Assembly (NCBI GenBank): GCA_035556555.1
Contig: DATMES010000027.1
Location: forward strand, 124,001-188,000
Length of the DNA: 64,000 bases
DNA from: Frankiaceae bacterium
GTDB lineage: Bacteria; Actinomycetota; Actinomycetes; BP-191
Reading direction: 5' to 3'
Shown: in pieces, positions 4,711-62,094 of the stretch
How positions within the stretch are numbered: position 1 is the first letter of the stretch
How the letters are laid out: each line of letters begins with the position of its first letter
Position numbers and translations under genes: made by a program
Notes under the pieces: model-generated
Told to the model about the DNA's origin: nothing
The model's database searches: none
Seen by the model: the letters and a program-made list of their open reading frames with translations, nothing else

Positions 4711-4733
4711 GGCATGTCCGGCATTGCCCGGCT

Positions 4734-4783
4734 GTTCCTTGCCGTTGCCGCGCCGGTCTCCCGCGTGATGATCTTCAAGGAAC
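4734..4783 (-). repeat. 50-bp dispersed intergenic repeat, family A, copy 1
   Basis: Bounded by GTTCCTT at the left and AAGGAAC at the right. Its conserved half reads GCGTGATGATCTTCAA on the plus strand (TTGAAGATCATCACGC on the other), next to GCCGGTCTC. Four more copies of exactly 50 bp lie at 11537, 19916, 37454 and 50783. This copy is in reverse orientation relative to the 50783 copy. Confidence 0.85.
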
Positions 4784-5255: not shown

Positions 5256-5336
5256 GGCAGAGCAACGGCACACCCGTCGCGAGGCGGGGTCGCAAAGCCA
5301 AGGAACCCGCAGGACCCGCAGGTCAGCCTGGCTGCC
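5256..5336 (+). promoter_or_regulatory. GEMM-I (cyclic-di-GMP-type) riboswitch upstream of pilA1
   Basis: The segment has the layout of a GEMM-I aptamer. P1 is formed by GGCAG (5256-5260) with CTGCC (5332-5336). A P2 arm contains a GNRA tetraloop (GTCGCGAGGC). The hallmark GTCGCAAAGCC lies at about 5290-5299, followed by a P3 arm with repeated CCCGCAGG. The 3' strand GGTCAGCCTGGCTGCC corresponds to GGTAGCGGGGTTACC in the Vibrio Vc2 aptamer. A short CCCTC/GAGGG hairpin near 5347-5360 may belong to the expression platform. The pilin start is 86 nt downstream. Known GEMM-I RNAs bind c-di-GMP, and some bind cGAMP; ligand choice cannot be read here. Confidence 0.85.
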
Positions 5337-5422
5337 TCGGCCGGCACCCTCCCCGGAGGGGGTCGCGCGAGGGCACAGCACTACCACGCGCGGCTCACAT
5401 CTTCGTCAGGGAAAGGGCAGAC

Positions 5423-8590: not shown

Positions 8591-9318
8591 GCGTCCTGAC
8601 CGCCGCGCTCGCGCGGGTCCGCCGAGGGGGAGCGCGCGGCTTCACGCTCGTCGAGCTGCTCGTCGCGTCGATGCTGTTCATGCTGCTGTCGTCGATGGTC
8701 TTCACGACGGTCGTCGCCGGCGCCAGGACCGCGAAGAACAGCCGCGAGTACAACGACCTCAACGAAGAGGCGCGCCTGCTCCTCAACCGCATGTCGCGCG
8801 AGCTGCGCGAGGCGCAGTCGATCGGCGCGGTCACCAACCCCGGCGGCGCGGTCTCGTCCACAGGCACCGAGCTCTACCCGTCGTACTACACGTCGGACGG
8901 CACCGCGGACACGTCGGTGACGTTCAACGTCGACTTCAACGGCAACGACACCATCGAGCCGAACGCGACGGACCCCGAGACGCTGACGTACAAGTACGAC
9001 CGCGCCAACCGCCGCGTCCTCCTGCTCGCCGCGGGCGAGTCGATGCCGGTCCTCGCCGCCGAGGTCGAGTCGTTCACGATGCGCTTCACCAGCCGCGTGC
9101 ACGCCGCCGACGGGGCCGTCGACGGGACGTACGACGGCGTCGTGAACTGGGAGGAGCTCGACGCCGACACGGCCAACGCCGGCGGCAACGACAACCACGT
9201 CCTCGACGGCGCGGAGCTGTCGAAGATCGACAGCATCACGATCGAGATCACCGTGCTCAAGGGCGACCGCGAGCAGACCTACCGGACGCAGGTCGACCTG
9301 CGCAACCGGCCGTACTAA
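8587..9318 (+). CDS. PilW-like minor pilin
   Basis: 243 residues starting in an ATGA overlap with the preceding gene. The leader MSVLTAALARVRRGGARG is cleaved before FTLVE, and the hydrophobic helix reads LLVASMLFMLLSSMVFTTVV. The sequence after it (REYNDLNEEARLLLNRMSRELREAQSI) is a helical spine typical of PilW/GspJ-type pseudopilins. An Asp/Asn-rich stretch (DFNGNDTIEPNATDPE) may bind calcium. A role in the tip or priming complex is inferred. Confidence 0.85.
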   Translation: MSVLTAALARVRRGGARGFTLVELLVASMLFMLLSSMVFTTVVAGARTAKNSREYNDLNEEARLLLNRMSRELREAQSIGAVTNPGGAVSSTGTELYPSYYTSDGTADTSVTFNVDFNGNDTIEPNATDPETLTYKYDRANRRVLLLAAGESMPVLAAEVESFTMRFTSRVHAADGAVDGTYDGVVNWEELDADTANAGGNDNHVLDGAELSKIDSITIEITVLKGDREQTYRTQVDLRNRPY

Positions 9319-10695: not shown

Positions 10696-11469
10696 ATGCT
10701 GGTAGCGCTCGCCGCGGTCTTCGGGCTGCTGATCGGGTCGTTCCTCAACGTCGTCGTGTGGCGCGTGCCGCGCGGCGAGAGCCTGGTCAGCCCGCCGTCG
10801 CACTGTCCGCGCTGCGACACGCCCATCAAGCCGTACGACAACCTGCCCGTCGTCTCGTGGCTGCTGCTGCGCGGGAAGTGCCGGCACTGCGGCGAGCCCA
10901 TCTCGGCGCGCTACCCGGGCGTCGAGCTGGCCACGGGCGTGCTGTTCGGCGCGCTGGCCGCGCGCATCGGCTACGACTGGGCGCTGCCGGCGTTCCTCTA
11001 CCTCGGCGCGATCTCCGTGGCGCTGGCGCTCATCGACCTCGACACGAAGCGGCTGCCCAACGTCATCACGCTGCCGTCGTACGTCGTCGGCATCGTGCTC
11101 CTCGGCGGCGCTGCGCTGCTGTCGGGCGAGTACGACCCGCTGGTGCGTGCCGTGATCGGCATGGCGGCGCTGTACGGCATCTACTTCCTGCTCGTGCTGG
11201 CGTACCCCGCGGGCATGGGCTTCGGCGACGTGAAGCTCGCGGGCGTGCTGGGGCTGTACCTGGGCTGGCTGGGCTGGCCCGAGTGGTTCACCGGCTGGAT
11301 GCTCGGCTTCCTCCTGGGCGGGATCTGGGGCGTCGGCGTGCTGCTGCTGCGGCGCGGGTCGCGCAAGACGCAGATCCCGTACGGGCCGTTCATGATCGCG
11401 GGCGCGCTCGTCGCGATCTTCGTGGGCCGGCCGCTCGCCGACGCGTACCTGGGAGTCAGCGGCCTCTAG
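10696..11469 (+). CDS. pilD: Prepilin peptidase / N-methyltransferase PilD
   Basis: A polytopic membrane aspartic protease of 257 residues that removes the class III leaders of the pilins encoded just upstream and methylates the new N-terminus. Cysteine pairs at 37/40 (CPRC) and 62/65 (CRHC) form the zinc site of the methylase domain after SFLNVVVWRVPRGES. Catalytic aspartates lie in ALIDLDTKRLPN (114/116) and GMGFGDVKLAG (178). It is the last gene of the minor pilin unit, with 18 nt after the PilX-like gene. Confidence 0.95.
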   Translation: MLVALAAVFGLLIGSFLNVVVWRVPRGESLVSPPSHCPRCDTPIKPYDNLPVVSWLLLRGKCRHCGEPISARYPGVELATGVLFGALAARIGYDWALPAFLYLGAISVALALIDLDTKRLPNVITLPSYVVGIVLLGGAALLSGEYDPLVRAVIGMAALYGIYFLLVLAYPAGMGFGDVKLAGVLGLYLGWLGWPEWFTGWMLGFLLGGIWGVGVLLLRRGSRKTQIPYGPFMIAGALVAIFVGRPLADAYLGVSGL

Positions 11470-11536
11470 CGCGCCGCGTCCGGCGTCCGAGCCGCTCCCC
11501 GGGGGTGCGGGCGTGCCGCGCGCCCTGTCACGTGGT

Positions 11537-11586
11537 GTTCTCTGCTGTTCCCCCGCCCCTCTCGAGCGTGATGATCTTCAAAGAAC
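11537..11586 (-). repeat. 50-bp dispersed repeat, family A, copy 2
   Basis: Starts GTTCTCT and ends AAAGAAC; the conserved half GAGCGTGATGATCTTCAA is in the same orientation as copy 1. The variable centre is CCCCCGCCCCTCTC. Confidence 0.85.
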
Positions 11587-11616: not shown

Positions 11617-11672
11617 CGTGATCTTGGCTGCGTTCGTGCTGCCCGGGAGGCACGAACGTCGCCAAGATCACG
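11617..11672. repeat. 56-bp palindromic repeat, family B, copy 1
   Basis: Begins CGTGATCTTGG and ends CCAAGATCACG. The inner arms CGTTCGTGC and GCACGAACG pair across a CCCGGGAG centre, giving a 23-bp stem with about two mismatches. It follows pilD and may act as a bidirectional terminator. Confidence 0.88.
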
Positions 11673-11891: not shown

Positions 11892-12950
11892 GTGGGAGTC
11901 AAGACCGCAGTGGGGCTCGACATCGGGACCTCCAGCGTGCGCGCCGCCGAGATGAGCCTGGGCAAGGGCCAGGGCACGCTCGAGCGCTTCGGCCAGGTCG
12001 CGTTGCCCCCGGGCACCGTGCGGGACGGCGAGGTCGTCGACCCGGACACCGTGGCGCGCGCCATCAAGCAGCTCTGGGCGACCGCCAAGTTCTCGACCAA
12101 GAAGGTCGTGCTCGGCGTCTCGAACCAGAAGGTGATCGTCCGGCAGGTGGACCTGCCGTGGCTGCCGGCCGACGAGCTGCGCAAGTCACTGGCGTTCCAG
12201 GTGCAGGACTTCATCCCGATCCCGGTGGACCAGGCGATCCTGGACTTCCACCCGCTGGAGGAGTTCACGAACGAGTCCGGCGGCCGGATGCTCCGCGTCC
12301 TGCTCGTCGCCGCGTCGCGTGACATGGTCGCCTCGGCGATGGCCGCCGCGCAGCGCGCGGGCCTCACGCCGGTCATGGTCGACCTCACGCCGTTCGCGAT
12401 GCTGCGGGCGCTGGCCCCGGTGGACCAGATGGGCTTCTCGGCCGAGGCCGAGGCGCTGGTCGACGTGGGCGCGTCCGTCACGAACATCGTCGTGCACCAG
12501 GGCGGCGTCCCCCGCTTCGTGCGCATCCTGCTCATGGGCGGCAACGACGTCACCGAGGCCGTCGCCGAGCGCATGGGCGTCCCCGTCGAGGACGCCGAGG
12601 CCATGAAGTGGCAGACCGGCATGGGCGCCGGCTCCTTCGAGGGCGCCTCGCCGGCCGCGCGGGTCATCGACCAGCACGCGGGCCAGTTCCTCGAGGAGGT
12701 ACGCGGCTCGCTCGACTACTACCTCGCGCAGCCCCAGGCCGCCCGCCTGTCGCGCGTCGTCGTCAGCGGCGGCGGTGCGCAGCTCGGCGGGATGGTCCAG
12801 CGGCTCGGCGAGATCCTGCGGGTCCCGGTCGTCCCCGGCCGCCCGCTCTCGAACGTTCGGATCGGCAAGCTCGGGCTCTCGGAGGAGCAGCTCGGTCACG
12901 TGGAGCCGCTCGCCACGGTTCCCGTCGGACTCGCGATGGGGGTGGCGTAA
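11892..12950 (+). CDS. pilM: Type IV pilus assembly protein PilM
   Basis: An actin-like cytoplasmic ATPase-fold protein of 352 residues that docks to the N-terminus of PilN and links the PilN-PilO inner-membrane frame to the motor. Visible motifs are the phosphate-1 loop VGLDIGTSSVRAAE, the LPWLPADELRKSLAFQVQDFIP segment, the VDVGASVTNIVV phosphate-2 loop and VVSGGGAQLGGM near the end. GTG 11892 was preferred to the longer start at 11766 because AGAGGGG lies 7 nt upstream and the family begins this way. pilN starts immediately after its stop codon. Confidence 0.93.
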   Translation: MGVKTAVGLDIGTSSVRAAEMSLGKGQGTLERFGQVALPPGTVRDGEVVDPDTVARAIKQLWATAKFSTKKVVLGVSNQKVIVRQVDLPWLPADELRKSLAFQVQDFIPIPVDQAILDFHPLEEFTNESGGRMLRVLLVAASRDMVASAMAAAQRAGLTPVMVDLTPFAMLRALAPVDQMGFSAEAEALVDVGASVTNIVVHQGGVPRFVRILLMGGNDVTEAVAERMGVPVEDAEAMKWQTGMGAGSFEGASPAARVIDQHAGQFLEEVRGSLDYYLAQPQAARLSRVVVSGGGAQLGGMVQRLGEILRVPVVPGRPLSNVRIGKLGLSEEQLGHVEPLATVPVGLAMGVA

Positions 12951-19915: not shown

Positions 19916-19965
19916 GTTCTGTGAAGATCACCACGCTCGAGACCGGTTGCTGGACTGCACAGAAC
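19916..19965 (+). repeat. 50-bp dispersed repeat, family A, copy 3, in the nusB leader
   Basis: GTTCT...AGAAC ends; contains GTGAAGATCACCACGCTCGA then GACCGG. Forward orientation. It ends 11 bp before the nusB start, so it must be part of the nusB leader in any transcript coming from efp. Confidence 0.85.
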
Positions 19966-19976
19966 GTTCATGGGCG

Positions 19977-20390
19977 ATGAGCGCTCGGTCCAAGGCGCGG
20001 AAGCGGGCGCTGGACGTCCTCTACGAGGCGGAGCTGCGCGGCGACGACCCCATCGAGACGCTGGCGACGCGGCTGGCGCAGGCGGATCCGCCGATCTCGG
20101 AGTACGCCGTGACGCTCGTCGAGGGCGTCGTCGCCCACCGGGAGCGGATCGACGCGGTCCTCTCGGCGCTGGCGGGCGACTGGCCGCTGGAGCGGATGCC
20201 GGCGGTGGACCGCAACGTGCTGCGCATCGGGACGTACGAGCTGCTCTTCCGGGCCGACGAGATCCCGGAGGGCGTGGCGATCAGCGAGGCGGTCGAGCTC
20301 GCGACGGCGCTGTCGACCGACGACTCGCCGAAGTTCGTCAACGGCGTGCTTGCCCGCGTGGCCGCGGACCGAGCGTCCGCGTCCGAATAG
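19977..20390 (+). CDS. nusB: Transcription antitermination factor NusB
   Basis: An all-helical RNA-binding protein of 137 residues that joins NusE (S10) on boxA RNA during rRNA antitermination. SARSKARKRALDVLYEAELRG at the N-terminus, LVEGVVAHRERIDAVL in the middle and LRIGTYELLF ... VAISEAVELA ... KFVNGVLARVA in the C-terminal half are family hallmarks. ATG 19977 lacks a clear ribosome site because the repeat sits directly upstream. The in-frame TTG at 19947 lies inside the repeat and is less likely. Confidence 0.93.
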   Translation: MSARSKARKRALDVLYEAELRGDDPIETLATRLAQADPPISEYAVTLVEGVVAHRERIDAVLSALAGDWPLERMPAVDRNVLRIGTYELLFRADEIPEGVAISEAVELATALSTDDSPKFVNGVLARVAADRASASE

Positions 20391-20404
20391 CCCCGCCTAC
20401 GCAC

Positions 20405-20471
20405 GACTGGTGACTGGCGACGCGGGACGAGCACGAACTGGTGAGCGGCGACGTCGCTACTCACCAGTAAC
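20405..20471. repeat. Hairpin family F, copy 2 (after nusB)
   Basis: The right arm at 20452-20471 (GTCGCTACTCACCAGTAACC) can pair with ACTGGTGAGCGGCGAC just before it or with GACTGGTGACTGGCGAC near 20405. The same GTTACYGGTGAGT motif forms the hairpin at 59778-59846. It probably acts as a terminator between convergent nusB and bldD. Confidence 0.6.
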
Positions 20472-20489
20472 CACGGGACAGGCCCCGGG

Positions 20490-20987: not shown

Positions 20988-21149
20988 CGTGCCGGCTCCT
21001 GTCGCTGGGTCCCGGCTGACGCCGGGGCCGAACAACGCGGACGCCGGTCTCACCACTCGCTCCTCCGGAGGCCGCCCCTCACGGGGCGTGGTGACCGCTT
21101 ACGGTCTCCGGGATCACAGCGTCGGCCGCGCCATCCCACTGCTGGGACG

Positions 21150-29656: not shown

Positions 29657-29657
<1 letters not shown>

Positions 29658-30511
29658 TGCCGCCGGTCCAGGTCCTCGGCGAGGTGCTGTCCGTCAAGAA
29701 GATGGGCGCGTACCTCCACATGACGATCGCCGCCCCCGGCATCGCCGAGCAGGTACGGCCAGGCCACTTCGTCGCGGTCGGCGTCGGCGGTCCGGAGACG
29801 TCGATGCTGCTGCGCAGGGCGTTCAGCATCTTCGCGGCGAGCGAGCGAGGGATGTACGGCGGCACCGTCGAGTTCGTGTTCGCGGTGCACGGCAAGGGCA
29901 CCGAGTGGCTGGCGCGGCGGCGGCAGGGCGACCCGGTCGACGTGGTGGGGCCGCTGGGGAGGCCGTTCAAGCTGCCGAAGGACCCCGTGACCTGCACCCT
30001 GGTGGGTGGCGGCTACGGCACCGCGCCGCTGTTCGGGCTCGCGGAGACGCTGCGCGCCAAGGGATGCAGGGTCGACTTCGTGGTCGGGGCGGCGACGTCC
30101 GAACGTCTCTTCGGTGCGCTGGAGGCCAAGCGCATCTCGTCGTCGGTGGCGTTCACGACCGACGACGGGTCGGCGGGGGAGCAGGGGCGCGTGAGCGACG
30201 TGCTGCCCGAGGTGCTGGAGCGTACGCAGAGCGACCTCGTCTACGCCTGCGGGCCGATGGGGATGCTCCGCGCGGTCGCCGAGATCGCCGCCGCGCACGG
30301 CATCCCGAGCCAGGTGGCGGTCGAGGAGTCGATGGCCTGCGGCATCGGCGTGTGCATGACCTGCGTGCTGCCCGTACGAGGTGACGACGGCGTGACGCGG
30401 ATGGCGCGGTCGTGCGTGGAGGGGCCTGTGTTCATGGGCGAGCAGCTGCGCTGGGACGCGATCGGCACCGTGCCGGCCGACTGCCTCGGCGCGCCGGTGG
30501 CGGTGCACTGA
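29657..30511 (+). CDS. pyrK: Dihydroorotate dehydrogenase electron-transfer subunit
   Basis: 284 residues with an FAD/NAD-reductase fold. LLRRAFSIF is the flavin-binding motif, VGGGYGTAPLFGLAETL the NAD-binding loop. Four cysteines (228, 233, 236, 253; in MACGIGVCMTCVLP and RSCVEGPV) hold the [2Fe-2S] cluster. It passes electrons from the PyrD flavin to NAD, which defines a class 1B enzyme. Two family B palindromes separate it from pyrD. Confidence 0.93.
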
Positions 30512-30540
30512 TGGTCGCCTTGCGCGCTGCTGCCGCACTT

Positions 30541-30596
30541 CGTGATCTTGGCAATGTTCGTGCTGCCCGGCGGACCGAAACATCACCAAGATCACG
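30541..30596. repeat. 56-bp palindrome, family B, copy 2
   Basis: CGTGATCTTGG ... CCAAGATCACG with inner arms around CTGCCCGGCGGACC. First of two copies in the pyrK-pyrD gap (30512-30734). Confidence 0.88.
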
Positions 30597-30651
30597 AAGC
30601 GCGGGACTCGGCCCGACACGGGCGGTGCCGGCCTTGCGCGCGCGCCGAACT

Positions 30652-30707
30652 CGTGATCTTGGTTGCGTTTGTGCTGCCCGGCCGACACGAACGTCGCCAA
30701 GATCACG
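30652..30707. repeat. 56-bp palindrome, family B, copy 3
   Basis: Same ends and length as the previous copy, 55 bp further on; centre CTGCCCGGCCGACACG. The pair sits inside the pyr operon, so if it terminates transcription, pyrD and pyrF would be partly uncoupled from carB. Confidence 0.88.
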
Positions 30708-30734
30708 AAAAGCGGTACCGGAAGGCGGCGCGGC

Positions 30735-31754
30735 ATGAGCGAGACCGTCACCACCGTCCAGGTGCCGCGGCACGAGCCGGCGCCGCTCGGCATCGACCTG
30801 TCCACGCGCCTGGCGGGCGTCTACTTCCCGAACCCCGTCTTCACCGCCTCCGGCTGCGCCGCCGCGGGGCAGGAGCTCGGGCAGTTCTTCGACGTCTCGC
30901 GGCTCGGCGCGATGGTCACGAAGTCGATCATGATGGAGCCGCGCAGCGGCCGCCCGACCCCGCGCATGGCCGAGACCCCCAGCGGCATGCTCAACTCGAT
31001 CGGCCTGCAGGGGCCCGGCATCGAGACGTTCCTCCAGCGCGACCTGCCGTGGCTGCACGAGCGCGGCGCGCGCACCGTCGTGTCCATCGCGGGCTCGACG
31101 GTCGAGGAGTACGTCCGCCTGGCCCAGCGGCTGCGCGGCCGCCCTGGCCTGACGATGCTCGAGGTCAACATCTCCTGCCCGAACGTCGAGGACCGCGGCA
31201 AGGTCTTCGCCTGTGACGCGGCGGCCGCCGCCGACGTCGTCAGCGCCGTACGCCGCGTCTCCTCGGTGCCGGTCTTCGCGAAGCTCTCGCCCGACGTCAC
31301 CGACATCGTCGCCATCGCGCGGTCGGTCGTGGACGCGGGCGCCGACGGCCTGTCGATGATCAACACGCTGCTCGGCATGGCCATCGACACCAAGACGATG
31401 CGGCCCGTCCTCGCGGGCGTCACCGGCGGCCTCTCCGGCCCTGCCATCAGGCCTGTCGCGGTCCGCTGCGTCTACCAGGTGCACGCCGCGATGCCGGAGG
31501 TGCCGATCCTCGGCATGGGCGGGATCCGTACGGGCACCGACGCGCTGGAGTTCCTGCTCGCCGGCGCCTCCGCGGTGTCGGTGGGGACCGCGGTCTTCGG
31601 CGACCCGAACGCTCCCATGCGGATCATCGACGAGCTGCGTACGGCGCTGTCCGAACGCGGCATCACCGACCTCACCGACGTCGTCGGGCGCGCCCACCGC
31701 GCCCCCGAGCCCCACATCCCCGAAGGACCAGAACCGGAGGCAGGCAACCCGTGA
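30735..31754 (+). CDS. pyrD: Dihydroorotate dehydrogenase, class 1B catalytic subunit
   Basis: FMN enzyme of 339 residues that oxidises dihydroorotate to orotate. YFPNPVFTASGCA at the N-terminus; EVNISCPNVE with a Cys at 148, likely the class 1 catalytic base; ADGLSMINTLLGMAIDTKT; and the phosphate-binding MGGIRTGTDALEFL. ATG 30735 has GGAAGG upstream; the longer in-frame start at 30663 would run through a repeat and was rejected. It works with PyrK. Confidence 0.95.
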   Translation: MSETVTTVQVPRHEPAPLGIDLSTRLAGVYFPNPVFTASGCAAAGQELGQFFDVSRLGAMVTKSIMMEPRSGRPTPRMAETPSGMLNSIGLQGPGIETFLQRDLPWLHERGARTVVSIAGSTVEEYVRLAQRLRGRPGLTMLEVNISCPNVEDRGKVFACDAAAAADVVSAVRRVSSVPVFAKLSPDVTDIVAIARSVVDAGADGLSMINTLLGMAIDTKTMRPVLAGVTGGLSGPAIRPVAVRCVYQVHAAMPEVPILGMGGIRTGTDALEFLLAGASAVSVGTAVFGDPNAPMRIIDELRTALSERGITDLTDVVGRAHRAPEPHIPEGPEPEAGNP

Positions 31755-37374: not shown

Positions 37375-37437
37375 GATGATCACCTGTGTCCCCACCTCCC
37401 GCTCACACGGGTCCCAGAAGGGACACAGGTGATCATC
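37375..37437. repeat. Hairpin with 18-bp perfect arms
   Basis: GATGATCACCTGTGTCCC (37375-37392) pairs with 37420-37437 across a 27-nt loop. Only one copy was seen in the window. It sits between a family D element and a family A repeat in a 420-bp region (37195-37614) with no gene. Confidence 0.8.
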
Positions 37438-37453
37438 TTCCTGGTGGCGAGGC

Positions 37454-37503
37454 GTTCTCTGGAGCCGGTGCGCCGGTCTCACGCGTGCTGATCTTCAAGG
37501 AAC
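37454..37503 (-). repeat. 50-bp dispersed repeat, family A, copy 5
   Basis: GTTCTCT ... AAGGAAC ends, with GCGCCGGTCTC and GCGTGCTGATCTTCAA inside. Same orientation as copies 1 and 2. Confidence 0.85.
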
Positions 37504-46179: not shown

Positions 46180-46722
46180 ATGTCCGTCCAGGAGATCCGG
46201 CTGCTCGGCGACCCCGTGCTGCGTACGCCCGCCGCGCCGGTGACGACGTTCGACAAGGAGCTGCGCAACCTCGTCCGCGACCTGCGCGAGACGATGCTCG
46301 ACGCTCCCGGCGCCGGCCTCGCCGCGCCGCAGATCGGCGTCAGCCTGCGGGTGTTCACCTACGACGTCGACGACAACGAGGGCCACCTCGTCAACCCCGT
46401 GATCGTGACGAAGTCGGACGAGCTGCAGGACGGCGACGAGGGCTGCCTGTCGCTGCCCGGGCTGTCGTTCCCCCTGAAGCGGTCCGCCAACGTCGTCGCC
46501 GCCGGGTTCAACATGTACGGCGACCCCGTGACCATCGAGGGCAGCGAGGTGCTCGCCCGCTGCCTCCAGCACGAGACCGACCACCTCGACGGCGTCATCT
46601 TCGTGGACCTGCTCGACCCGGAGACGAAGAAGGCCGCGATGAAGGCGATCCGCGAGGCCGAGTGGGCCGCGCCGCCGGTCGTGAAGCCGTCGCCGCACCC
46701 GATGTACGGCACGGGCCGCTAG
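46180..46722 (+). CDS. def: Peptide deformylase
   Basis: Metal-dependent removal of the formyl group from new proteins. 180 residues. Motif 1 GAGLAAPQIG, motif 2 EGCLSLPG with the metal-binding Cys, motif 3 QHETDHLDG with the two His ligands and catalytic Glu. The start at 46180 follows the family D element, so its promoter must lie in or just after that element. Confidence 0.96.
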   Translation: MSVQEIRLLGDPVLRTPAAPVTTFDKELRNLVRDLRETMLDAPGAGLAAPQIGVSLRVFTYDVDDNEGHLVNPVIVTKSDELQDGDEGCLSLPGLSFPLKRSANVVAAGFNMYGDPVTIEGSEVLARCLQHETDHLDGVIFVDLLDPETKKAAMKAIREAEWAAPPVVKPSPHPMYGTGR

Positions 46723-46774: not shown

Positions 46775-46830
46775 CGTGATCTTGGCAATGTTTCGGTCGC
46801 CCGGGCAGCCGAAACATCACCAAGATCACG
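46775..46830. repeat. 56-bp palindrome, family B, copy 4
   Basis: CGTGATCTTGG ... CCAAGATCACG, centre GGTCGCCCGGGCAGCC. It lies between def and fmt. Confidence 0.88.
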
Positions 46831-46863: not shown

Positions 46864-47787
46864 GTGCGCGTCGTCTTCGCCGGTACGCCGGCGCCCGCCG
46901 TCCCCTCCCTCCGCGCGCTGCTGGCGTCCCGCCACGAGGTCGTGGCCGTCGTCACGCGCCCCGACGCGCCGGCGGGTCGCGGCCGGCACGAGCGGCGTTC
47001 GCCGGTGGCGGTCACCGCCGACGAGGCCGGCGTGCCGGTCCTGCAACCCGCGACTCCGCGCGACGAGGAGTTCCAGGCCGCGCTGCGCGACCTCGCGCCC
47101 GACTGCTGCCCCGTCGTCGCGTACGGCGCCCTCATCCCCAAGCCGCTCCTCGACCTGCCGCGCCACGGCTGGGTCAACCTTCACTTCTCGCTGCTCCCCG
47201 CCTGGCGCGGCGCGGCGCCCGTCCAGCACGCCGTCCTGCACGGCGACGAGGTGACGGGCGCGACGACGTTCGTGCTCGAGGAGGGGCTCGACACCGGCCC
47301 GGTGCTCGGCGTCGTCACCGAGGAGATCAGGCCGGCCGACACCTCCGGCGCCCTCCTCGAGCGCCTCGCCGTCAGCGGCGCGCACCTGCTGGTCGCCACG
47401 CTCGACGGGATCGAGGACGGCGAGCTCCGGGCCGTGCCCCAGCCGAACGACGGCGTCTCCCTCGCGCCCAAGCTCGGCCCCGAGGACGTACGCGTCGACT
47501 GGACCGCCCCCGCGCTCCGCGTCGACCGGCTCATCCGCGCCGCGACGCCCAACCCGGGCGCCTGGACCACGCTGAACGGCGGCCGGGTCAAGCTCGGCCC
47601 GGTGTCACGATCCGACGCCGGCCCGCTCCCGCCCGGCGTCCTCCGCGTCACGAAGCAGGGCGTCGAGGTCGGCACCGCCGACAGGCCCGTCCGCCTCGGC
47701 GAGGTCCGCGCGGAGGGCAAGAAGCCGATGCCCGCCGCCGACTGGGCGCGCGGGCTGCGCCTCGCCGACGGCGCGGCGTTCGCGTGA
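46864..47787 (+). CDS. fmt: Methionyl-tRNA formyltransferase
   Basis: 307 residues from a GTG at 46864. [18 protein letters not shown] at the N-terminus, [24 protein letters not shown] with the SLLPxWRG catalytic segment and [18 protein letters not shown] with the catalytic Asp. The C-terminal OB-fold domain covers about 205-307. It adds the formyl group that Def later removes. It overlaps rsmB by 4 nt. Confidence 0.96.
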
Positions 47788-50782: not shown

Positions 50783-50832
50783 GTTCTTTGAAGATCATCA
50801 CGCTCGAGACCGGCGCGTGGACTGCAGAGAAC
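50783..50832 (+). repeat. 50-bp dispersed repeat, family A, copy 4
   Basis: GTTCTTTGAAGATCATCACG then CTCGAGACCGGCGCG and GGACTGCAGAGAAC. Forward orientation; the best representative of the family. It lies between the GGDEF gene and the FMN riboswitch. Confidence 0.87.
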
Positions 50833-50903
50833 GAGCGGGGGCGGACCTGACCGAACGCCGTTCGGTGCCGAGCGCGCCGCGTGCGACAATGGGTGCGCAC
50901 GCG

Positions 50904-51022
50904 CGCTCCGGGGTCGGTGCAACTCCGAACCGGCGGTCACAGTCCGCGACCCGTTCGCAGCCAGCCAACGGTGGACCAGGTGGAACTCCTGGACCGACAG
51001 TCACAGTCTGGATGAGAGGCAG
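50904..51022 (+). promoter_or_regulatory. FMN riboswitch (RFN element) of the rib operon
   Basis: All conserved segments are present: GGGGTCGGTGCAACTCCG (from 50910), ACCGGCGGTCACAGTCCGCG, GTGGACCAGGTGGAACTCC, and GACAGTCACAGTCTGGATGA ending in GAGAGG. A GCGGGCG/CGCCCGC hairpin (51026-51032 with 51045-51051) follows and may be part of the switch. FMN binding is expected to lower ribD expression. The 371-bp gap 50720-51090 also holds a family A repeat. Confidence 0.96.
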
Positions 51023-51090
51023 CGCGCGGGCGCTCGTTCGCGCGCGCCCGCACACCCCCGAAGCGCACCCGACGCGCGAGGGAGGTGGCG

Positions 51091-59746: not shown

Positions 59747-59777
59747 GCCGCCCACTCTGCCACGCCCGCTCCTCGAA

Positions 59778-59846
59778 GTTGCCGGTGAGTACGGACTGCC
59801 GAGATCACCGGCTGAGCGTGCTCGCGAGTCCGTACTCACCGGTAAC
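59778..59846. repeat. Hairpin family F, copy 1
   Basis: Arms 59778-59797 (GTTGCCGGTGAGTACGGACT) and 59827-59846 pair at 19 of 20 positions over a 29-nt loop. The 3' arm motif is shared with the hairpin after nusB. It lies in the divergent gap between the DUF1844 gene and the secreted propeller protein. Confidence 0.75.
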
Positions 59847-59910
59847 ATCCGCGCCGCCGGCCGCGCGGCGCACGGCAGGGACCGCGCCCGGCCCAGCGAA
59901 CTCCTTGCGC

Positions 59911-61239
59911 ATGCGTCGAACCCTCCTGCTCGCCCCCGCCGTTCTCTCCGCCATCGCCCTCGCGGTCACCGCGCCGAACACCGGCGCCACCACGACCGGC
60001 ACCGTCGCGTGGGAGCCGCCGGTCCTCGTCACCGACACCCAGGGCGCGCGCGAGATGAGCATGGTGCTCGACCCGACGAACGAGCAGCGGATGTTCGCCT
60101 GCACGCCGTCCGGCCTGCAGAACCCGCACAGCCAGTCGCACTACTTCCAGACCGCCGACGGCGGCGACTCGTGGACGTACACCGACGTCGAGACAGACCC
60201 CGACGACACGCGTACGCAGCTCTCCGAGGGCGGCGACTGCGACGTCGCGTACGACAGCGCGGGCACCATGTACGTCGCCGACACCTGGGTCGGCAACCTC
60301 TCCGTCGGCACCAGCCGCGACGGCGGCGCGACGTGGACCGGCACCGCGCTGGCCGTGAACGTCCCCGTCGTCGACCGCCCCTGGCTCGTCGCCCCCGGCG
60401 CGCCCGGCGTGGTCTACGTGACGTACCAGGCGCTGCAGGGGCAGATGCCGACGCTGATGTGGTTCACGAAGAGCACCGACTACGGGAGGACGTTCAGCCC
60501 CGCGGTGCCGATCACCACGGCCAACCTCGACGGGACCTACACGTGGGAGGGCAACGTCGTCACCTCTCCCGACGGACAGGACATCTACCTGATCCACTCG
60601 CGCCGCGTGACGCCCGCGCAGTACGGCCTGCCCGACCTGATCCAGCTCGCGTACAGCCACGACGGCGGCACGTCATGGCGGACGCGCACCGTCGAGACGC
60701 TGCCCGCGCCGACGACGCCGGGCACGCTCTACCCCGGCATTGCGATGGACGCCGGCGGCCACCTGCACGCGGTCTGGTCGGCGCCGCGCGACACGCACGG
60801 CGACGTCCCCGTCTACTACACGACGTCCGCCGACAAGGGCGTCACGTGGTCGGAGCCGATCGTCACCGGTACGACGTGGACGGCGTGGGCGCCATGGGTC
60901 GCGGGAGGCCGTACGGCGGGGGAGGCGGCCATCGCCTGGCTCGGCACGCCCAGCGCCACGCCGCGCGAGGCGTCCCCCTGGTACTTCGGCTACGCCACCG
61001 TGTCCGCCGGCGCGATCACCGCCAGCGGTACGACGACGGAGGCGCCGATGTTCACCGGTGTGCAGACGTACCCGGAGTTCCAGGCGATCAGGTACGACAG
61101 CACCGGCAGGCTGCACCTCGGCATGGCGGTCTTCGGCCCCAGCGGCACGTGGTCGCTCTACTACCAGCGCCAGGCGCTGCCCACGGCGACGGCGAGCCCG
61201 AGCCCCACCGCCATGCGCCGCGGCCGGGGGCGCGGCTGA
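59911..61239 (+). CDS. Secreted BNR/sialidase-like beta-propeller protein
   Basis: 442 residues. Signal peptide about 1-28 ([20 protein letters not shown]). The mature part shows repeated S-x-D-x-G-x-x-W Asp-box motifs: [52 protein letters not shown], about 60-70 residues apart, as in BNR propellers. No sialidase Arg triad or FRIP motif was recognised, so enzymatic activity is unlikely. The ATG at 59911 lacks a clear ribosome site; a TTG at 59905 is an alternative. Confidence 0.82.
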
Positions 61240-61259: not shown

Positions 61260-61315
61260 CGTGATCTTGGCGACGGTCGTGTTGCCCGGGCAGCAGAAAC
61301 GTCGCCAAGATCACG
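61260..61315. repeat. 56-bp palindrome, family B, copy 5
   Basis: CGTGATCTTGG ... CCAAGATCACG with centre GTTGCCCGGGCAGCAG. It lies 21 bp after the propeller gene and just before the infC promoter, where a terminator would be expected. Confidence 0.88.
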
Positions 61316-61359: not shown

Positions 61360-61524
61360 GTTCCGTTGACCGGCACGTCGCGTTCAGGCGTGCTCGCAAG
61401 CGGGAACCCCGTTCCCCACCCTCGGGCCGCAGGCACCAAGGGTTCTCGGTCGGGCAGCGCCGTGTGCGCGTACGCCCAATCGAAGGGGCTCCCGGGTCGT
61501 CAGTACCCGCTACGAGGAGGCCCC

Positions 61525-62094
61525 ATCAGCGTCGAACCACGGATCAACGACCGGATCCGCATTCCCGAAGTCCGCCTTGTCGGCGCGGAGGGCGAGCAGA
61601 TCGGCATCGTGCCGATCGGCGAGGCCATGCGCATGGCCCAGGAGCAGGACCTCGACCTCGTCGAGGTCGCTCCGATGGCTCGGCCGCCCGTCTGCAAGAT
61701 CATGGACTACGGGAAGTTCAAGTACGAAGAGGCGCTGCGGGCCAAGGAGGCTCGGAAGAAGCAGTCGCTGACGATCATCAAGGAGATCAAGCTCCGGCCC
61801 AAGATCGACCCGCACGACTACGGCACCAAGAAGGGCCACGTCGAGCGGTTCCTCAAGGCGGGAGACAAGGTCAAGGTCACGATCATGTTCCGTGGCCGCG
61901 AGCAGTCGCGGCCCGAGCTCGGCTACCGGCTCCTCCAGCGGCTGGCCGACGACGTGACCGACCTGGGCCTGGTGGAGTCGGCACCGAAGCAGGACGGCCG
62001 CAACATGATCATGGTGCTGGCCCCGCACAAGAAGCGGATGCCCGTCGGCTCCGCGGAACAGGCCCCCGAGGCCGCACAGGGAGAGACGACGTAA
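61525..62094 (+). CDS. infC: Translation initiation factor IF-3, ATC start
   Basis: 189 residues. The protein must begin near [17 protein letters not shown]; the only start after GAGGAGG (61514-61520) is ATC at 61525. Rare ATT/ATC starts are characteristic of infC, because IF-3 discriminates against them and so limits its own synthesis. N-domain: [32 protein letters not shown]-domain: [14 protein letters not shown] and [16 protein letters not shown]. Confidence 0.95.

Follow-up and report, generated by a model that had tools for sequence, protein, structure and literature searches.

What a 56-bp palindrome is doing at five places in one stretch of an actinomycete chromosome, twice inside the pyr operon, is the question raised by the window, the whole 64,000-nucleotide stretch analysed here. 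The earlier note offered three answers, namely a bidirectional terminator, a protector of mRNA ends and a protein site. A fourth, set out below, is an element of DNA inserted between the genes.

Palindromes in the window

The palindromes begin at positions 11617, 30541, 30652, 46775 and 61260, where the earlier note had placed them, and each is exactly 56 bp long. Their layout had no match in 100 shuffles. The 11-bp outer arms, CGTGATCTTGG...CCAAGATCACG, are perfect in all five, and the predicted folds lie between −42 and −49 kcal/mol (z −6.4 to −8.3). The stem, given earlier as about 23 bp, comes to about 21–22 bp with mismatches included, and what was described as a CCCGGG-like centre is a crown with mismatches and poor pairing.

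The first copy (11617–11672) lies between a type IV leader peptidase gene (10696–11469) and pilM (11892–12950) and is an insertion relative to both sister species. The second (30541–30596) and third (30652–30707) lie between pyrK (29657–30511) and pyrD (30735–31754), with pyrF next, and thus do split the pyr operon. The pyrK stop codon is 29 bp before the second copy, and the pyrD start codon (ATG at 30735) is 27 bp after the third. Both belong to an own-species insertion of about 230 bp (30497–30734, forward strand); pyrK overlaps pyrD at an ATGA in both sisters. These two copies are close together but are not a tandem duplicate, since their interiors differ. The stretch at 30617–30651 (CCTTGCGCGCGCGCCGAACT) is a one-sided flank that also accompanies four or more other copies of the genome, a subfamily extension of the element. 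The fourth copy (46775–46830) separates the genes for peptide deformylase (46180–46722) and fmt (46864–47787), in a gap about 127–137 bp longer than in the sisters, and the fifth (61260–61315) begins 20 bp past the stop of the reading frame at 59911–61239, with infC (61462–62094) downstream.

Distribution in the genome and in the class

These five repeats are members of a family of about 89 palindromes spread between the genes of one species; the original observation is real and larger in extent than first claimed. The 3.98-Mb Frankiaceae genome holds 89 copies of the 56-bp layout, every aligned copy but one (55 bp) having that length; alignments took in 58–64 copies, and surroundings were examined for about two thirds. 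The layout has no copy in two sister species of the same genus, which with this genome represent the order, and none in 392 further genomes of the class. Viral contigs gave no exact layout, the interior was palindromic in none of their 19 gapped matches, and no match to the palindrome was found in plasmids and phages.

A relaxed query, GTGATCTT-N20..50-AAGATCAC, with the eight end bases fixed and a total length of 36–66 allowed, was run over the 395 genomes of the class. It recovered 81 copies in the Frankiaceae genome and multi-copy families of 71, 34, 14, 10, 7, 4 and 3 copies in other genera, while a reversed-pattern control matched nothing in any of the 395; scattered single matches include non-palindromic chance ones. 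In the other genera the ends read GTGATCTTG...CAAGATCAC and lengths are mostly 57–60 bp. The interiors are unrelated between genera and species-specific, and are still self-complementary. The ninth base (always G/C in multi-copy families), the palindromic interior, the narrow length, the placement just past stop codons and the preference for convergent gaps are all features that the query did not impose. When one mismatch was allowed in three other genomes, the arms nearly always paired at one spacing and the ends varied little. In one genus, 19 of 40 species carry 1–49 copies and 21 carry none; two of its species supplied 40 copies, which are exactly 58 or 59 bp long and lie in 16 convergent, 21 co-directional and 1 divergent gaps. 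Pairing is high over about 20 pairs, dips near positions 21–24 as in the Frankiaceae copies and declines outside the ends, and outward flanks are purine-rich throughout. Judged from these sequence comparisons, the 56-bp palindromes are the form taken in this species by a hairpin family with the same 9-bp ends and differing middles in several other genera of Actinomycetes. The anatomy shared by this superfamily comprises a stem of about 21 bp, an invariant terminal 9 bp, a covarying mid-stem, a mismatched crown and purine-rich outer flanks. A non-exhaustive search of the open-access literature found no description of the motif or of an actinobacterial REP or MITE family, and the REP literature searched does not mention actinobacteria.

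Insertion sites and neighbouring genes

At least one sister has a readable orthologous junction for each of 12 sampled copies (11 sites), and the gap was longer in the Frankiaceae genome in every case. The difference in gap length is roughly 80–300 bp; the inserted DNA, at about 80–240 bp per site, usually exceeds 56 bp, and the sister genes often abut or overlap, as at pyrK-pyrD. At another locus (L128), neighbouring genes that touch or overlap in the sisters are kept apart by about 100 bp that hold one copy. By this comparison of junctions, the sampled copies are insertions relative to the sisters. Insertion of the palindromes breaks up overlapping operon genes. Mycobacterial MIRUs likewise insert between tightly spaced or overlapping operon genes in actinobacteria; unlike these palindromes, they are direct, non-palindromic repeats. 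No consistent target-site duplication emerged from the flanks, whose direct-repeat score equalled that of shuffled pairings (p about 0.3) and was suggestive only at 46775 and at one further locus (L127), and flank complementarity did not exceed that of shuffled pairings. Flanks are mostly not common to copies and generally do not travel with the interior. At least five copies do form a subfamily with a common one-sided GC-rich flank, so that the unit may originally have measured closer to 100 bp. At one junction (L150) different palindromes occur by species, with three elements in the Frankiaceae genome and one of a second family (see below) in the sister G001 (L156); the junction was also compared in G002 (L157). 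Such a difference at a single junction suggests that 3′ gene ends may be recurrent landing sites.

With gap classes taken from gene calls by codon score, copies in the Frankiaceae genome occupy 17 convergent, 2 divergent and 32 co-directional gaps; divergent gaps hold more than four times as much background sequence, yet only two copies. Convergent to divergent ratios elsewhere are 8:1 and 16:1. The distance past the preceding stop codon is usually about 5–50 bp across the superfamily and mostly 8–60 bp in the Frankiaceae genome. A fixed orientation relative to genes was rejected, the two orientations occurring 19:16, and T-rich sequence precedes the Frankiaceae stems and A-rich sequence follows them on both strands, an arrangement opposite to that of an intrinsic terminator.

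Constraint on sequence and pairing

Nearest-neighbour copies differ from each other at about 3.8 of the 34 interior positions. Over the core 20 bases they show 4 differences in all, where the interior rate would predict 131, a near-absence for which the tolerance of the copy search (3 mismatches in 22), although it limits core variation, cannot account. The conserved flank in these copies is symmetric (AAAANCGG), and an oriented profile is hardly better than random half pairing. Arm changes were said to be often compensated, and among 63 distinct copies this holds at positions 12, 13, 14 and 20 counted from GTG, where none of 5000 re-pairings reached the observed value; at positions 22–24 compensation is absent or negative, and at position 23 the arms are less alike than in random re-pairings. 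The lower stem is therefore kept paired and the crown not, while the outer 10 bp, being practically invariant, give no information on pairing. The claim that pairing, and not sequence alone, is conserved stands for the mid-stem, and strikingly so across genera, where interiors differ wholly yet remain palindromic, but not for the outer 9–10 bp, which are conserved in sequence and not only in pairing. Within single species other than this one covariation reaches modest significance, the strong evidence being that between genera. Homogenisation of the arms by template switching, a non-selective cause of covariation, is not favoured, since it should homogenise the crown too, and the crown is mismatched.

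On the transcribed strand in co-directional gaps of the Frankiaceae genome, G.U and A.C combinations number 20 and 25, and they number 15 and 15 in the 40 copies from two species of another genus. The palindromes offer a concrete case in which pairing is conserved but lacks the G.U signature on which arguments for RNA function draw.

Possible origin and function

We lean, with a little more confidence than doubt, towards a non-autonomous, REP-like palindromic element that acts at the DNA level and is moved or maintained by a putative factor recognising its ends. The unit would be a short, non-coding interspersed palindrome, comparable to a REP or to the smallest possible MITE, able to form a hairpin or cruciform. 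Its terminal inverted repeat of 9 bp (GTGATCTTG/CAAGATCAC) would be fixed, the next 12 or so stem pairs would be free in sequence provided that they pair, and the mismatched crown would complete it. The putative trans-acting factor would read the duplex ends, and the unit would be copied into intergenic sites just past stop codons, where it would be tolerated because promoters are spared; effects on transcript 3′ ends may be a by-product of hairpins predicted at −42 to −49 kcal/mol. Replicative dispersal, the recognising factor and selection on DNA rather than RNA are what we infer from this pattern. A bolder version, possible but rather doubtful, is a superfamily of mobile DNA hairpins in Actinomycetes. 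Its 9-bp ends would be universal and stay fixed, its self-complementary interiors would be free and replaced species by species, and an undescribed enzyme reading the duplex base of the extruded or single-stranded hairpin would disperse it.

A bidirectional terminator, pause site or exonuclease barrier formed in the transcript of the upstream gene would suit the position of the palindromes, usually 5–50 bp past a stop codon and often midway between convergent genes, as well as their very stable predicted folds (z −6 to −8), the mid-stem covariation and the pyrimidine-rich sequence ahead of the hairpin. That position after stop codons and in convergent gaps is equally typical of REPs, and the palindromes depart from intrinsic terminators and other gene-end inverted repeats in their strict terminal sequence conservation, their lack of any transcript-strand bias in pairing and their absence from orthologous junctions, the same junctions existing in the sisters without a palindrome. 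No U tract follows the stem, only A or purines on both strands, and G.U is no commoner than A.C in co-directional transcripts, which together disfavour an intrinsic terminator and the proposal of a terminator or mRNA protector as the selected function. A terminator would not need an invariant 9-bp duplex sequence, and none was called at the pair at 30541 and 30652; Rfam 15 gave no covariance-model match at the palindromes, finding only riboswitches and tRNAs. An RNA 3′-end element is unlikely, though a serious rival. Protein sites, also named in the earlier note, are possible, and invariant ends with diverged interiors could equally mean a host-level function. A dimeric nucleoid, topoisomerase or road-block protein reading terminal half-sites, which the host then keeps, would agree with that contrast, with the fixed spacing and with the random orientation to genes. 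It would leave the self-complementary interior without explanation and sits badly with the absence of the palindromes from the sisters and from about half of the species in one genus. We regard a host DNA-binding site as somewhat less likely still, but likewise as a serious rival.

Insertion sequence ends have conserved tips and a variable inner inverted repeat. The palindromes resemble them in this and are insertions relative to the sisters, as would be expected of a MITE made of two joined terminal inverted repeats of a DDE insertion sequence, whose tips would be conserved and whose inner part would be specific to the IS. Like the bacterial MITEs RUP, NEMIS/Correia and ERIC, they are non-coding, have inverted-repeat ends and insert between genes, but they are palindromic nearly throughout, are shorter than the usual 70–300 bp and show neither a partner transposase nor a consistent target duplication. 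Neither a transposase or autonomous element bearing such ends nor a copy with a gene between its ends was found in four genomes (the listed solo ends of the Frankiaceae genome and three others); the solo ends in about 60% of the Frankiaceae list were chance matches in coding sequence or copies with slight mutations, of which one measures 55 bp. A DDE-derived MITE is very unlikely. Interspersed palindromes have so far been explained mainly by RAYT transposases in Proteobacteria. REPs of the GTAG and CGTC super-families, mobilised by RAYT (TnpA-REP), are likewise high-copy extragenic palindromes found mostly downstream of genes, with some close pairs (PMC3733652), and the present family shares with them its convergent and co-directional gaps, its species-specific families and its imperfect, mismatched stems. 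The RAYT-associated REP is, however, defined by an unpaired GTAG (or CGTC) tag at one palindrome end (PMC3733652), and the palindromes have no such tag, measure 54–60 bp against 20–40 bp for REPs and are conserved in a symmetric, fully paired stem base. The Y1 domain PF01797 is absent from the Frankiaceae genome, where the controls were positive, and from the genome with 49 copies, and in the genus of 40 species Y1 occurs in 6 of 19 species with copies and 7 of 21 without (p = 1). A classical RAYT-mobilised REP is contradicted by these results and hardly merits consideration. The actinomycete superfamily combines high copy number, fixed ends and free interiors with no link to RAYT, and the contrast of 0–49 copies within one genus makes a search for the gene responsible feasible.

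Other repeats and RNA elements

Further palindromes occur nearby. A second family of about 52 bp, GTTCTNTGAAGATCAnnACG...CANAGAAC, has AAGATCAC in common with the 56-bp family and species-specific core letters. It is found in the window at about 4731–4783, 11534–11586, 19916–19968, 37451–37503 and 50783–50834, at other loci of the Frankiaceae genome and at loci L107, L156 and L173 of G001. A third family of about 70–80 bp, GTTACTGGTGAGTAGCGAC...GTCGCTACTCACCAGTAAC with a variant GTTACCGGTGGGTACGGAC..., lies at about 20385–20475 and 59760–59850 in the window and at loci L117, L122, L137 and L150, with one related copy in the sister G002 (sister locus L171). The fourth palindrome, ATGATCACCTGTGTCCC...GGGACACAGGTGATCAT, has two copies in about 400 kb, one at 37376–37436 in the window and one at L186. 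A longer dispersed repeat of about 250 bp, up to 93% identical between copies (L128, about 8917–9141; L179, 3228–3491; L190, 1831–2098; L148, 517–773), includes a diverged second-family palindrome and may be a longer mobile element. The window also carries an FMN riboswitch (50899–51029), a class II-GAG c-di-GMP riboswitch on the reverse strand (21033–21133) and a class I c-di-GMP riboswitch (5257–5339) near type IV pilus genes.
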